Source: Clostridiales bacterium | GTDB lineage: Bacteria > Bacillota > Clostridia > DUPQ01 | Reading direction: 5' to 3' | Length of the DNA: 33,714 nucleotides | Assembly: GCA_023145435.1 (NCBI GenBank) | Contig: JAGLDS010000005.1 | Span: forward strand, 1-33,714 | Part shown: one piece after another, positions 5,265 to 23,327 of the stretch | Position numbering within the stretch: position 1 is the stretch's first letter | How the letters are laid out: every line of letters starts with the position of its first letter | Position numbers and translations under genes: made by a program | The notes under the pieces: model-generated | Database searches by the model: none | The model's input: the letters and a program-made list of their open reading frames with translations, nothing else | What the model was told of the DNA's origin: nothing

Positions 5265-7004
5265 TTATTTTTCTGCCCAATTACTAGCTATTTCAATGTC
5301 AGCAACTAATGGAACATTACTTAAAAAGCTTATACCTGCATTTTCCATTACATTTTGTAAAGTTTTTTTTGTTTGTTTAGCTATTTCTTCCTTACATTCA
5401 ATAATAATTTCATCATGAATTACAGCTACAATATGTACATTACTATCTTTTATTTTTTTATAAAGATTTCCTAAAGCTATTTTTAAAATATCAGCTGCAC
5501 TACCTTGAACAGGGGTATTGCAAAAACTACTAAATCCAGTGGTATCACGATAAAAGTATCTACGACCTGTTATGGATTTTGCAGATGTTGGAGGATTACT
5601 CTTAAAGTTGTTATGCCATTTTTTTATACCTGTATACGCTTTAAAATATTCGTTTCTAAATTGATCTGCTTGTTCAAGAGTAATATTAATTCCGTATGTA
5701 TCTTTGGAATAATTCATTAACCCTCTAGAACCCATACCAAATATTAATCCGAAATTAACAGCTTTCGCAGATTGCCTTTGCTCTTTTGTTATTTCACTAA
5801 TAGGTGAATTTGTAATTAAAGATGCAGTTAATTTGTGTAAGTCTTTATTATCTTTATAAGCTTTTATCATTCTAGGGTCATTTGCAATTTCTGCTGCTAT
5901 TCGCAATTCAACCTGAGAATAATCAGCTATGATAAAACAATTTCCTTTATCTGGAACAAACATTTCTCTGAATTTTTTATCTCGTGGTACTTGCTGCATG
6001 TTAGGTTTACGACAACTCATACGACCACTTGATGCACCAATTTGAGAATAACTTGCATGGATTCTACCTGTTAAATTATTAATATCTTTTGGTAATGGTT
6101 GTAAAAAAGAACCATATAATTTATATGCTTTTCGATAATTCTTTAGAGCAATAATTAGGGGGTGATTAGCATATGAGGCTAAAGAGGCTTGTGAAGTATC
6201 GTCTATAAAAATATCGTTTTCATTAAGAAGTGTTAGTATTTGTTTTTGTGAATTAAAATTTATTGAGTGACTTTGTTCAATACCAAAGAAAGTTTGTTGA
6301 ACTACTTTATTAATAACAAAAGAATCTAACGTTTCATGGTATTGTTGCACTTGTTTTTTAATTTGAAGAGTGTAAGCAGATAAAAGTTGTTCATCAATTT
6401 TCATACCGGTTAGTTCCATGTCTGCAATAGCATATATACAAGAAAACTCAATAGCTGCAATTTTTTCTAATTTAGCTTTTCTAAGATCACTTTGCATTGC
6501 TTCTCTAAGTTCTAGTAAAATATGAGCATCTTTAGCAGCGTACTGTAATTGAGAATTAGTTAGTTCACCAGAAAAATCACTTTTTTGTTCTTCTTTATTT
6601 AATTCTTTTCCCAAATAAAATTTTGATAATTCTGCTAAATTAACACGATATGGGCCACTGTTACTTCGTAGTAATTGCCCTGCTATCATTGTGTCAAAAA
6701 GTATACCTTCGACTGTGTAACCGTTATGATATAAAAATTTTAAATCAAACTTAGCGTTTTGAAATATTTTAGTATTATTTAATTTCATGATTTTTTTTAT
6801 AATCTGTTGATCTTCAATTGATACTTTAAAAAGGTCAATTACAAAAACAGGGCTATTGTATGTAGCAATTTGTAGCAATCGTAATTGACTAGTAAAAACA
6901 TCAAGTCCAGTTGTTTCTGTATCTATTGCCATTACATCTTGTGTAAGGAGCAAATCACGATAATTTGTTAATGATCCCTGTGAAGGGATTAGAATGGTTT
7001 CCAT
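5265..7004 (-). CDS. family A DNA polymerase with 3'-5' exonuclease, no 5' nuclease
   Basis: A 579-residue Pol I-like polymerase. The exonuclease domain (about 15-180) keeps all DEDDy residues: D28 and E30 in AIDTETTGL, D87 in NAKFDLKF, and Y155 and D159 in YAAKDAHILL. The polymerase domain has motif A ADYSQVELR (360-368), motif B RQSAKAVNFGLIFGMG (410-425) and motif C VIHDEIIIE (528-536). The N-terminal flap nuclease domain of normal bacterial Pol I (about 300 residues) is missing, so RNA primer removal would need another protein. The O-helix position that is Tyr766 in E. coli Pol I is Phe here. A longer in-frame ATG at 7019 exists, but GGAG sits just before the ATG at 7004. It is convergent with rqcP and divergent from the GGDEF gene. 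Confidence 0.93.
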   Translation of the reverse strand: METILIPSQGSLTNYRDLLLTQDVMAIDTETTGLDVFTSQLRLLQIATYNSPVFVIDLFKVSIEDQQIIKKIMKLNNTKIFQNAKFDLKFLYHNGYTVEGILFDTMIAGQLLRSNSGPYRVNLAELSKFYLGKELNKEEQKSDFSGELTNSQLQYAAKDAHILLELREAMQSDLRKAKLEKIAAIEFSCIYAIADMELTGMKIDEQLLSAYTLQIKKQVQQYHETLDSFVINKVVQQTFFGIEQSHSINFNSQKQILTLLNENDIFIDDTSQASLASYANHPLIIALKNYRKAYKLYGSFLQPLPKDINNLTGRIHASYSQIGASSGRMSCRKPNMQQVPRDKKFREMFVPDKGNCFIIADYSQVELRIAAEIANDPRMIKAYKDNKDLHKLTASLITNSPISEITKEQRQSAKAVNFGLIFGMGSRGLMNYSKDTYGINITLEQADQFRNEYFKAYTGIKKWHNNFKSNPPTSAKSITGRRYFYRDTTGFSSFCNTPVQGSAADILKIALGNLYKKIKDSNVHIVAVIHDEIIIECKEEIAKQTKKTLQNVMENAGISFLSNVPLVADIEIASNWAEK

Positions 7005-7026
7005 AATAACTCCAATCATATATACT

Positions 7027-18178: not shown

Positions 18179-18179
<1 letters not shown>
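16560..18179 (+). CDS. secreted SpoIID/LytB-domain protein (probable peptidoglycan lytic transglycosylase)
   Basis: The 539-residue protein has a signal peptide (basic MKRIKR, hydrophobic core, cleavage near NVNA at 27-30). An N-terminal region of about 190 residues has no family I can name. A SpoIID domain (about 220-535) follows. That domain has [11 protein letters not shown], in which Glu246 matches the catalytic Glu of SpoIID, then [16 protein letters not shown], and ends with [18 protein letters not shown]. SpoIID cleaves stem-less glycan strands during engulfment in spore formers. This protein is much longer than classical SpoIID (about 340), and such long forms also occur outside sporulation operons. 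GGAGGA precedes the ATG. The stop overlaps the queA start. Confidence 0.88.
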
Positions 18180-20337
<2,158 letters not shown>

Positions 20338-20352
20338 AGGAGAACTATAATA

Positions 20353-20640
20353 ATGGATAACACTTGGTCACTCATATCGATCGTTGTTGTATTTGGTATC
20401 ATGTATGCCGTACTAATTATTCCTCAACGTAGGAAAGAGAAAAAGACAAAAGCTATGCTTAATGCATTAGGGCAAAATGATTTAGTCATGACTATTGGCG
20501 GAATCGCTGGTAAAATTGTTAATATTAATGAAGATGATATTACAATTGAAACAGGTATCGACAAAACAAAATTGCTAGTAAAAAAATGGGCAATAAGAAG
20601 TGTAGAACCTGTACAAGTTGAAGAATCAACTAGTATGTAA
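20353..20640 (+). CDS. yajC: preprotein translocase subunit YajC
   Basis: YajC is a small accessory membrane protein of the SecDF translocase complex. The 95-residue protein has one N-terminal transmembrane helix (about 6-24), then the conserved IIPQRRKEKKTKAMLNAL and GDLVMTIGGI-type segment (here NDLVMTIGGIAGKIV), and a basic soluble tail. AAGGAGA precedes the ATG. secD and secF do not follow; the operon ends at a terminator. Confidence 0.94.
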   Translation: MDNTWSLISIVVVFGIMYAVLIIPQRRKEKKTKAMLNALGQNDLVMTIGGIAGKIVNINEDDITIETGIDKTKLLVKKWAIRSVEPVQVEESTSM

Positions 20641-20647
20641 TGAAAAT

Positions 20648-20669
20648 GCTGCCAAATGGCAGCTTTTTT
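20648..20669 (+). terminator. intrinsic terminator after yajC
   Basis: Perfect 6-bp GC-rich stem GCTGCC/GGCAGC, loop AAAT, then six T residues. The T tract overlaps the stop codon of the convergent NlpC/P60 gene by two bases. Confidence 0.9.
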
Positions 20670-21912
20670 ATTGTAAAGAAATCCCAAGATATATTAGTGA
20701 TTGATAAGGAGTTCCACTGCTTGAGTAAATATCAAAATCATTAATAATTACTCCATTAGCATTTACGAATTTACCATCGCTAAAAAATCCAGGAGTGTCA
20801 TGGATCATATATCGCTTTTCTCCATGATCTCCTAAATACATCATAACATGACCCTTCATAAATAATAGTGAGCCTATGGACAATGATTCATAGTTTTCGT
20901 TTGTTTTAAGAGAAAAAGTATTTGTAGGAATTAACTCTTGTTGATCAGTATTTCTTGGTAACTTAATTCCAAATACACTATAGATATCTACTATATAAGA
21001 AGAACAATCTCGTCCGTTATTATCACCACCCCATCCATATGGATCACCTATTAGAGATAGAGCTGTATCAATAAGATTTTTAGTTGTATAGGGTAAATAA
21101 CCTTTTTCACAGTCAATTCTAAAAATGGCTTCTTTAACAAAATATAATTGTCCAGTTGAAGTTGTCTTTGGTAAAAGAACAATTAAGTTATAATTTCTAT
21201 CAACACTTATTAAAGGTAGTTTACTACCTAAATCAAGTTGAGTATTTGATTTATTTGTAAGAGTATTAGCTTTAGTAACTATAGCAAAGTTAGAGCAGCC
21301 AATATATAGAAAAATTACTTCTCTAGAGCAGTAAGCAATAGCTTCTTTTTCCACCCATCCAGAATAATTATACATTTTCACATAGTAGAATTTATTATCA
21401 GCAGAAACGTGTAAAATAGCAACAGGTTCACCTACATATAAGGTTGTTTCTAGTAATCTATCATAGGAAGAAGTAGTAGAAGAATATAATTTATTAGTTG
21501 TTGGTAAGCGCTTTAAAGGTGCTCGCTTAATAACAACACCATATGTAATATCATTTGATTCATTAATTGAAGATAGATTCATATTTAAAAGATAACCATC
21601 ATATATATTTCCAGCAATCAAATTGCGATTTTCATCATATCGTGAGGAAGATGGAATAAAAGATGTAAAATTAATTGCTTTAGTTAATAAAATTTCAGAC
21701 ATGGAAGTTTTTTCATATATAATATTATTAACTTCTGGTATGGTGTCAATAATATTTTCATTTAAATTTATAATTTGATTTTGATCTAAAATAATCTGTC
21801 TATCATACGGGTAAGCTTTGAAATAGTCTAATAAGCTTTCATCTGCAGCGTTTGTGTGAATTGGAATAAATAATAGTAATATAAATAGTAGTGTGATTGT
21901 AAAATTTTTCAT
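20668..21912 (-). CDS. secreted NlpC/P60 cysteine peptidase with SH3-like domains
   Basis: Probably a cell-wall peptidase that cuts between D-Glu and the diamino acid of stem peptides. The 414-residue protein has a signal peptide (cleavage near THTNA-type site at 18-22) and SH3-like repeats about 120-265. The NlpC/P60 domain (about 278-414) has PYGWGGDNNGRDCSSY with catalytic Cys303, His355 in KGHVMMYLGD and a likely third residue His371. The layout resembles YkfC of Bacillus. No Shine-Dalgarno is visible: the bases before the ATG read CTTCTTTT, and AT-rich -10-like boxes lie about 14 bases upstream, so it may be read with a very short leader. Confidence 0.9.
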   Translation of the reverse strand: MKNFTITLLFILLLFIPIHTNAADESLLDYFKAYPYDRQIILDQNQIINLNENIIDTIPEVNNIIYEKTSMSEILLTKAINFTSFIPSSSRYDENRNLIAGNIYDGYLLNMNLSSINESNDITYGVVIKRAPLKRLPTTNKLYSSTTSSYDRLLETTLYVGEPVAILHVSADNKFYYVKMYNYSGWVEKEAIAYCSREVIFLYIGCSNFAIVTKANTLTNKSNTQLDLGSKLPLISVDRNYNLIVLLPKTTSTGQLYFVKEAIFRIDCEKGYLPYTTKNLIDTALSLIGDPYGWGGDNNGRDCSSYIVDIYSVFGIKLPRNTDQQELIPTNTFSLKTNENYESLSIGSLLFMKGHVMMYLGDHGEKRYMIHDTPGFFSDGKFVNANGVIINDFDIYSSSGTPYQSLIYLGISLQ

Positions 21913-21940: not shown

Positions 21941-21969
21941 TTGTAAAAAAAAACCGGATACGATATACT
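21941..21969 (+). promoter_or_regulatory. promoter of scfA
   Basis: TTGTAA (21941-21946), 17 bases, TATACT (21964-21969). It gives a leader of about 20 bases containing AACGGAGGG. It lies back to back with the NlpC/P60 gene. Confidence 0.7.
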
Positions 21970-21995
21970 ATTTATAGTAAAAACGGAGGGATTGT

Positions 21996-22133
21996 ATGAA
22001 ACATATTATTACTATCAATAAACCAAAATTACACAAAGACCTTGATAATAAAGGGTGTGGAGAGTGTCAAAATTCTTGTCAGTCAGCATGTAAAACATCA
22101 TGTACTGTTGCTAATCAAGAATGTAAGAGATAA
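21996..22133 (+). CDS. scfA: SCIFF ribosomal peptide precursor (six cysteines in forty-five residues)
   Basis: The encoded peptide is exactly 45 residues, with six cysteines at 21, 24, 28, 32, 36 and 43. It begins MKHIITINKP and has the core segment CGECQNSCQSACKTSC (21-36). This is the SCIFF family, nearly universal in Clostridia. In known cases a radical SAM protein (ScfB) joins Cys sulfur to a residue alpha carbon, usually Thr, and the peptide usually lies just after yajC with the maturase gene beside it. Here it lies after yajC, with the divergent NlpC/P60 gene in between, but no radical SAM gene is in the window. The biological role of SCIFF is unknown. A strong GGAGG lies 5 bases from the ATG, and it has its own promoter. 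Confidence 0.95.
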   Translation: MKHIITINKPKLHKDLDNKGCGECQNSCQSACKTSCTVANQECKR

Positions 22134-22165
22134 GGAGAACGGTTAAATTAACCGTTTCTTATAAT
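22132..22165 (+). promoter_or_regulatory. Shine-Dalgarno separated from AUG by a perfect hairpin
   Basis: AAGGAG (22132-22137) is the only ribosome binding site near the next ATG (22166) but lies 28 bases away. The gap holds AACGGTTA-AAT-TAACCGTT (22138-22156), an 8-bp perfect stem that begins directly after the AAGGAG. Folding it leaves 9 bases (TCTTATAAT) before the ATG, a normal spacing. The same hairpin followed by TCTT could act as a weak terminator of scfA. Confidence 0.65.
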
Positions 22166-22672
22166 ATGATAGAAACCTTTAAAAATTATACACCTAAAAT
22201 TCACGAACATACTTTTATTGCTAAAAATTGCTCAATTATTGGACAAGTTGTTATAAGAGAACAAGCTAGTATCTGGTATGGAGCTGTTTTGCGAGGAGAT
22301 ATTGAAAAAATAATTATTAAAAAAGGCAGCAATGTTCAAGATAATTGTGTTCTTCATTGTAGCGAAAATATTCCTTTGATAGTTGGAGAAAATACCACAA
22401 TTGGCCACGGCGCAATTCTGCATAGCTGTAATATTGGGAGCGGTTGTCTAATTGGAATGGGATCTACAATACTAGATGGAGTAGTCATTGGTGATAATTG
22501 TTTAATAGGGGCAAACGCATTAGTTACACAGAATCAAATAATTAAAGAAGGCTCGTTGGTTGTTGGTAGCCCTGCAAAAGTAAAACGATTATTAAGCGAA
22601 AAAGAAATTTTATATATGCATGAAAACACACAAGAATATATTAAATTAATGAAAGAGTATAACCATGATTAA
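22166..22672 (+). CDS. gamma-carbonic anhydrase-like hexapeptide-repeat protein
   Basis: The 168-residue left-handed beta-helix protein has repeated hexapeptides (such as IVGENTTIGHGAIL and VVIGDNCLIGANAL). The three zinc ligands of gamma-class carbonic anhydrases are at His64, His81 and His86, the last two with the classical five-residue spacing. Such YrdA/PaaY-type proteins form trimers; carbonic anhydrase activity is shown for some only. It follows scfA after a hairpin and ends inside the start of the HD gene (8-base overlap). Confidence 0.9.
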   Translation: MIETFKNYTPKIHEHTFIAKNCSIIGQVVIREQASIWYGAVLRGDIEKIIIKKGSNVQDNCVLHCSENIPLIVGENTTIGHGAILHSCNIGSGCLIGMGSTILDGVVIGDNCLIGANALVTQNQIIKEGSLVVGSPAKVKRLLSEKEILYMHENTQEYIKLMKEYNHD

Positions 22673-23327
22673 TATTCAAGAAATTAGAAAAAATGATGAA
22701 GTAAAAAACTTTCTTAGAGTTGCAGAAATGCAGCTTTCTGCACAAGGTTTTACAGAACATTCTTTTCGCCATGTAGGGTTAGTATCTAAAATGGCAGGTA
22801 ATATTTTAAACGATTTAGAATTTTCTGATAGAGAAGTTGAATTAGCTAGAATTGCAGGTTATCTACATGATATTGGTAATGCAGTTAATAGAACAGATCA
22901 TGCACATATTGGGGCAACACTTGCATATGATATGTTGCTTAGAATGGGTATGAATGTTTTAGATGCTAGTGAGATTATGTTAGCTATTGGGCAACATGAT
23001 GAAAAAACTGGTACAGCTGTAAGCCCTATATCTGCAGCTTTGATATTAGCTGATAAATCAGATGTACATAGAAGCCGTGTTAATAATAAAAAAGAAGTAT
23101 CTACTTATGAGATTCATGACAGAGTTAACTATGCTGTTGAGAGTTCAAAAGTGAATATAGATAAATTAAAAAAAAGAGCAGTTCTTGAATTGGTTATTGA
23201 TACTGAAATTTGTCCTGTAATGGATTATTTTGAAATCTTTTTGTCAAGGATGTCAATGTGTCGAAGAGCTGCGGAATTTTTAAATTTAGAGTTTCATTTA
23301 ATTATAAATGGAGCATCATTATTGTAA
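22665..23327 (+). CDS. HD-domain phosphohydrolase
   Basis: The 220-residue protein has the full HD metal set: His36 (SFRHV), His68-Asp69 (YLHDIGN), His79 or His81 (DHAHIGA), His111 (GQHDEKTG) and Asp130 (LADKSD). It is therefore likely to be an active metal-dependent phosphohydrolase on a nucleotide or other phosphate ester; the substrate cannot be predicted. The C-terminal part (about 150-220) has no recognised domain. The ATG overlaps the upstream gene by 8 bases. The next gene starts 13 bases after its stop. Confidence 0.87.
   Translation: MINIQEIRKNDEVKNFLRVAEMQLSAQGFTEHSFRHVGLVSKMAGNILNDLEFSDREVELARIAGYLHDIGNAVNRTDHAHIGATLAYDMLLRMGMNVLDASEIMLAIGQHDEKTGTAVSPISAALILADKSDVHRSRVNNKKEVSTYEIHDRVNYAVESSKVNIDKLKKRAVLELVIDTEICPVMDYFEIFLSRMSMCRRAAEFLNLEFHLIINGASLL

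Follow-up and report, generated by a model that had tools for sequence, protein, structure and literature searches.

The scfA gene and its expression signals

The DNA that we analyzed, here called the window, is a stretch of 33,714 nucleotides from a Clostridiales bacterium. The features at and around its scfA gene are the following:

18179..20640 (+): queA-tgt-yajC, upstream genes of the ancestral scfA operon (YajC profile; order shared with Clostridium and other Clostridia)
20668..21912 (-): SH3/NlpC-P60 protein, encoded between yajC and scfA and divergent from the latter (PF12913, PF00877)
21941..21969 (+): probable sigma-A-type promoter of scfA, TTGTAA-17-TATACT (promoter scan, likeness to congener G001, divergent upstream gene)
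21981..21995 (+): strong ribosome-binding site of scfA, GGAGGG (sequence)
21996..22133 (+): scfA, SCIFF ranthipeptide precursor (TIGR03973; cysteines C21, C24, C28, C32, C36 and C43; Thr34 and Thr37)
22139..22158 (+): terminator- or attenuator-like hairpin AACGGTTAAATTAACCGTT, then TCTTA, between scfA and the next gene (fold)
22166..22672 (+): gamma-carbonic-anhydrase-like hexapeptide-repeat protein, gCA (NF050158)
22665..23327 (+): HD-domain protein (PF01966)

The scfA open reading frame encodes a peptide of 45 residues with six cysteines, MKHIITINKPKLHKDLDNKGCGECQNSCQSACKTSCTVANQECKR, in which both candidate acceptor threonines after Cys32 (Thr34 and Thr37) are present. Membership in TIGR03973 was judged by a score over the curated cut-off of 50 bits, full length and six cysteines, and the peptide has all three, with 84.6 bits (E 3.2e-24) over profile positions 1-43 of 43. 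Sequence comparison showed it to be intact with the full core kept, and a search of the draft genome found scfA as a single gene. Thus, the intact precursor described in an earlier note on this DNA is confirmed, and the strong ribosome site that the same note had claimed is plain in the sequence, which reads GGAGGGATTGT-ATG. The promoter that it had also assigned to scfA gains nothing from counting, as promoter-like elements are not above chance (3 found, 2.3 expected). It is nevertheless likely, since congener G001 has a similar element, TTGTAA-18-TATAAT, at the equivalent place before scfA, and the upstream gene is divergent. The hairpin behind the stop codon folds at -10.1 kcal/mol (z -3.3); a consensus terminator scan gave no match there, and relatives carry hairpins at the equivalent place 3' of scfA, most of them with a T run. 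The promoter counterpart, the divergent upstream gene and these hairpins indicate that scfA is probably transcribed separately, as a small unit.

Genes around scfA

Both genes that follow scfA recur as neighbors of scfA or scfB in other genomes. The gCA protein, which scored 188.6 bits against NF050158, under the model cut-off of 250, also occurs in G001, G004, G029, G016 and G035. The HD-domain protein adjoins scfB in G031, G039 and G037, and a similar one follows scfA in G021 and G058. The SH3/NlpC-P60 neighbor is common to the window and congener G001. No radical SAM domain turned up when the main open reading frames of the window were scanned with profiles; rho, infC, rplT, hisI/hisE, dapA/dapB and asd were named by eye only. 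The earlier note was therefore right about the two genes next to scfA, and right, for the proteins scanned, about the lack of a radical SAM gene in the window. The window also encodes, at 5265-7019 on the reverse strand, a family A DNA polymerase that stands alone and has a 3'-5' exonuclease but no 5' nuclease domain.

The precursor length, six-cysteine core, leader and queA-tgt-yajC-scfA context are those of the known SCIFF systems (scfA/scfB, TIGR03973/TIGR03974; CteA/CteB of Clostridium thermocellum, PDB 5wgg/5why; Tte1186). Unlike in those systems, scfB does not lie beside scfA in the window; this adjacency is usual, but not defining, for a SCIFF system.

ScfB in the draft genome and in its closest relatives

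The genome to which the window belongs (G000) is available as a draft assembly, 69.5% complete, whose 19 contigs total 1.44 Mb. A TIGR03974 profile search of this draft gave no ScfB over the cut-off of 425 bits; the best and sole match, on contig C14, scored 61 bits. In a draft this incomplete, not finding ScfB carries little weight on its own.

Full-length ScfB, scoring 530-564 bits against the same cut-off, was found in the congeners G001-G003 and in G004, G006 and G008 of the sister genus g2. The scfA and scfB genes lie on different contigs in G001, G004, G006 and G008. No scfA was found in the drafts of G002 and G003, and there the flanks of scfB show that it lies away from scfA. In genus g3 of the same family, scfB adjoins scfA, and ScfB scores about 740-752 bits. 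The genome-wide search proposed in the earlier note thus ended in two parts: no ScfB in the G000 draft, from which about 30% is missing, and an scfB elsewhere in all the closest relatives.

The flanks of scfB are conserved in g1, the genus of the window, and in g2, as seen in a locus comparison in which several genes were named by eye. The order is radA-like, carD, PIN/TRAM, ispD, ispF, scfB, a HAD phosphatase and two unknowns, followed by an mgtC-like gene, a gene for a flavoredoxin- or AMMECR-like protein and a ddl-like gene. When carD, PIN/TRAM, ispD, ispF, HAD, the mgtC-like gene and the next gene were joined into one query, only a HAD paralogue of 30% identity was found in G000. A joined query of carD, ispD, ispF and PIN/TRAM had no match in G000, and the same query found all four genes in G001, G003 and G008. 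The contig ends of G000 were searched for a break within the scfB block, and none was found: no block genes or neighbors were present as orthologues within about 9 kb of the sampled ends (the low end of contig C15 is the window itself). The block therefore seems to be missing as a whole. Bacteria using the MEP pathway normally cannot do without IspD and IspF, so missing DNA explains this better than the loss of every gene. Since the tested block genes are all absent from G000, scfB is best placed in the portion of the genome that was not assembled. The maturase-elsewhere alternative, which the earlier note had left beside others, is thus supported both by this absence and by the unlinked, intact ScfB in all the congener and sister-genus genomes searched.

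ScfA with and without ScfB across Clostridia

Among 393 genomes of Clostridia, nearly all at least 90% complete, scfA was found in 335 and ScfB in 333 (E <= 1e-60), with both in about 330, a joint count made by comparing the listed handles by hand. Such near-perfect co-occurrence, linked or not, points to a conserved pair working in trans. Three genomes (G246, G196 and G296; loci L096-L098) have ScfB over the cut-off and no clear ScfA, two of them with ScfBs in the unlinked clade described below; their scfA may lie in assembly gaps.

The family f39 departs from this pattern. ScfA over the cut-off occurs in 7 of its 37 genomes, in three genera (G098, G210, G422, G423, G431, G433 and G434; loci L092, L112 and L131-L135), and the profile search found ScfB over the cut-off in none of the 37; in six of the seven, nothing matched the ScfB profile at E <= 1e-10. 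The f39 scfA genes are single genes in AT-rich surroundings, mostly in different places, with no yajC or sec neighbors in the stretches read. These peptides could function without ScfB, or they could be relics or transfers; the core kept across genera argues somewhat against decay. We entertain only tentatively the idea that ScfA has a function independent of ScfB, as its retention without ScfB in f39 may indicate, and that it might have one in the present species too.

The strongest rival to a missing stretch of DNA is that this species lost scfB, leaving ScfA either to work in its unmodified form, perhaps in metal binding or redox chemistry, or to decay. It would fit the lack of ScfB in the species' own assembly and the intact ScfA without ScfB in f39. 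We nevertheless regard it as improbable: ScfB is present in all congeners, the genes that flank the unlinked scfB are absent as well, which indicates missing DNA and not gene loss, the assembly is only 69.5% complete, and scfA is intact with its full core. The suggestion of the earlier note that the peptide acts unmodified or through other partners accordingly found no support here and is unlikely, as all congeners carry ScfB.

History of the scfA/scfB split

In a set of 60 genomes of relatives, scfA and scfB are unlinked in 11 of the 51 that have scfA. In an unrooted tree of 52 ScfB proteins, from which L059 and the very long L091 were left out, 13 unlinked ones fell into one clade (support 100/99) that spans five families: f1 (g1 and g2), f4, f12, f13 and f20. 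Three other unlinked ScfBs arose separately, those of G037 and G258 and the second copy of G040. This second copy (L078, contig C11) is full-length, scores 613 bits, lies apart from the linked pair of that genome and branches with Clostridium ScfBs. In genus g95 of family f58, scfA and scfB lie 62-85 kb apart on one contig.

The unlinked ScfBs of the relatives were tested for the TIGR03974 cut-off, the N-terminal RRE part, and the CX3CX2C and SPASM cysteines, and all of these were found, at scores of 530-620 bits. Within the clade, all 13 proteins keep the radical SAM cysteines, and the remaining conserved cysteines are present in 12 or 13 of them. The relatives' ScfB aligns end to end with CteB, with the cluster cysteines kept; that of G002 does so (PDB 5wgg) over residues 1-442 at 444 bits. 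Still, the clade is divergent, with 530-620 bits compared to about 620-800 in most linked lineages, and the ScfA of g1, g2 and f20 has Asn26 where Thr is common. The unlinked ScfB of L075 (G030, contig C189) lies in two overlapping frames of 305 and 359 bits, the result of a frameshift or a sequencing error. The ScfB-related orphan maturase 'not_ScfB' (NF040492) is related to the unlinked proteins, and it was rejected as their identity: the G002 ScfB scores 486 bits against it (cut-off 855) and 539 bits against TIGR03974 (cut-off 425). Moreover, in contrast to an orphan maturase, it belongs to a genus that carries scfA (G000 and G001).

In the unlinked lineages, scfA remains in its ancestral place, tgt-yajC-(TIGR04086-like)-scfA, followed by gCA, HD or secD-secF, and Clostridium species (L086-L090) keep scfA-scfB-secD-secF in that same operon. 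The window is this ancestral operon without scfB and with the P60 protein inserted. From these operon remnants we infer that scfB left the operon, rather than joined it. The split is therefore old, stable and common to five families, and is not a case of a peptide without a maturase.

The remaining ancestral neighbors queA, tgt, yajC, gCA and HD could also be read as the trace of a local, recent rearrangement that removed scfB from the operon in this species only. The same split in both genera of f1 and in f4, f12, f13 and f20, with their ScfBs in one clade, makes this very improbable. Hence, of the simple rearrangement that the earlier note had envisaged should an scfB be found elsewhere, the separated pair was borne out by the neighborhoods of relatives, and a recent origin was not, as five families share the split.

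Predicted maturation of ScfA

Least credible of all is that another radical SAM/SPASM enzyme modifies ScfA instead of ScfB: the C14 protein, the sole SPASM enzyme found in the draft by the ScfB profile, was rejected as ScfB because it scores as a genuine anaerobic sulfatase maturase (NF010321, 449 bits, over the cut-off). Its match to the ScfB profile begins at position 104 and so leaves out the N-terminal RRE part.

We therefore consider it very probable that the window carries a standard SCIFF scfA and that the gene for its ScfB lies at another chromosomal site, within DNA that the 69.5%-complete assembly lacks. Against this stand the lack of any ScfB seen in G000, where the only SPASM protein found by profile is the sulfatase maturase, and the persistence of ScfA without ScfB in f39. 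In the ancestor of the clade, scfB would have departed from a queA-tgt-yajC-scfA-scfB-(gCA/HD)-secDF operon in which scfA stayed, and in genera g1 and g2 it now resides in the carD-PIN/TRAM-ispD-ispF-scfB-HAD(-mgtC) block. ScfA would be made from its own small transcript, and ScfB would bind its leader in trans through the N-terminal RRE domain. The radical SAM and SPASM iron-sulfur clusters of ScfB would then form the thioether of Cys32, to Thr34 or Thr37.

This scheme follows the characterized family members, and the modification of ScfA in this species is predicted from them. According to PMC8326336, the RRE of ScfB binds the ScfA leader, and the thioether joins Cys32 to Thr37 or, in later work, to Thr34, the published reports disagreeing on the acceptor; Chen et al. 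2020, cited therein, proposed a quorum-sensing role in solventogenic clostridia. The published reaction needs no gene adjacency, and by analogy the same reaction likely proceeds in trans here. Among 53 distinct ScfA sequences, all 53 have Thr at position 34, and at position 37 there are 36 with Thr, 16 with Gly and 1 with Ala; Thr34-Thr37 of the window are encoded at 22095-22106. Nearly all genomes with Gly37 carry an intact, linked ScfB. The invariance of Thr34, together with Gly at position 37 beside an intact ScfB, favors Thr34 over Thr37 as the general thioether acceptor; the invariance of one core residue counts for little alone, as most of the core is invariant. A doubled precursor was seen at locus L043 (G014, contig C84), where two tandem ScfA-like cores lie in one open frame beside scfB.

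Implications for the SCIFF family

In kind the system is nothing unusual: the peptide family is known, and its enzyme is encoded at a distance. The literature searched, largely titles and abstracts, held no description of the split arrangement shared by the five families. In PMC5300114, a neighborhood of 500 bases was used, and every ScfA is expected to have a ScfB. If ScfA did function independently of ScfB, this would break the rule of a maturase for each SCIFF precursor and would point to a function of the six-cysteine peptide in its bare form; f39 is a natural setting in which to ask whether ScfA is active without ScfB. Ranthipeptide genome mining that requires a maturase within a few hundred bases will miss or misjudge an old clade, spread over several families, in which precursor and maturase are split.
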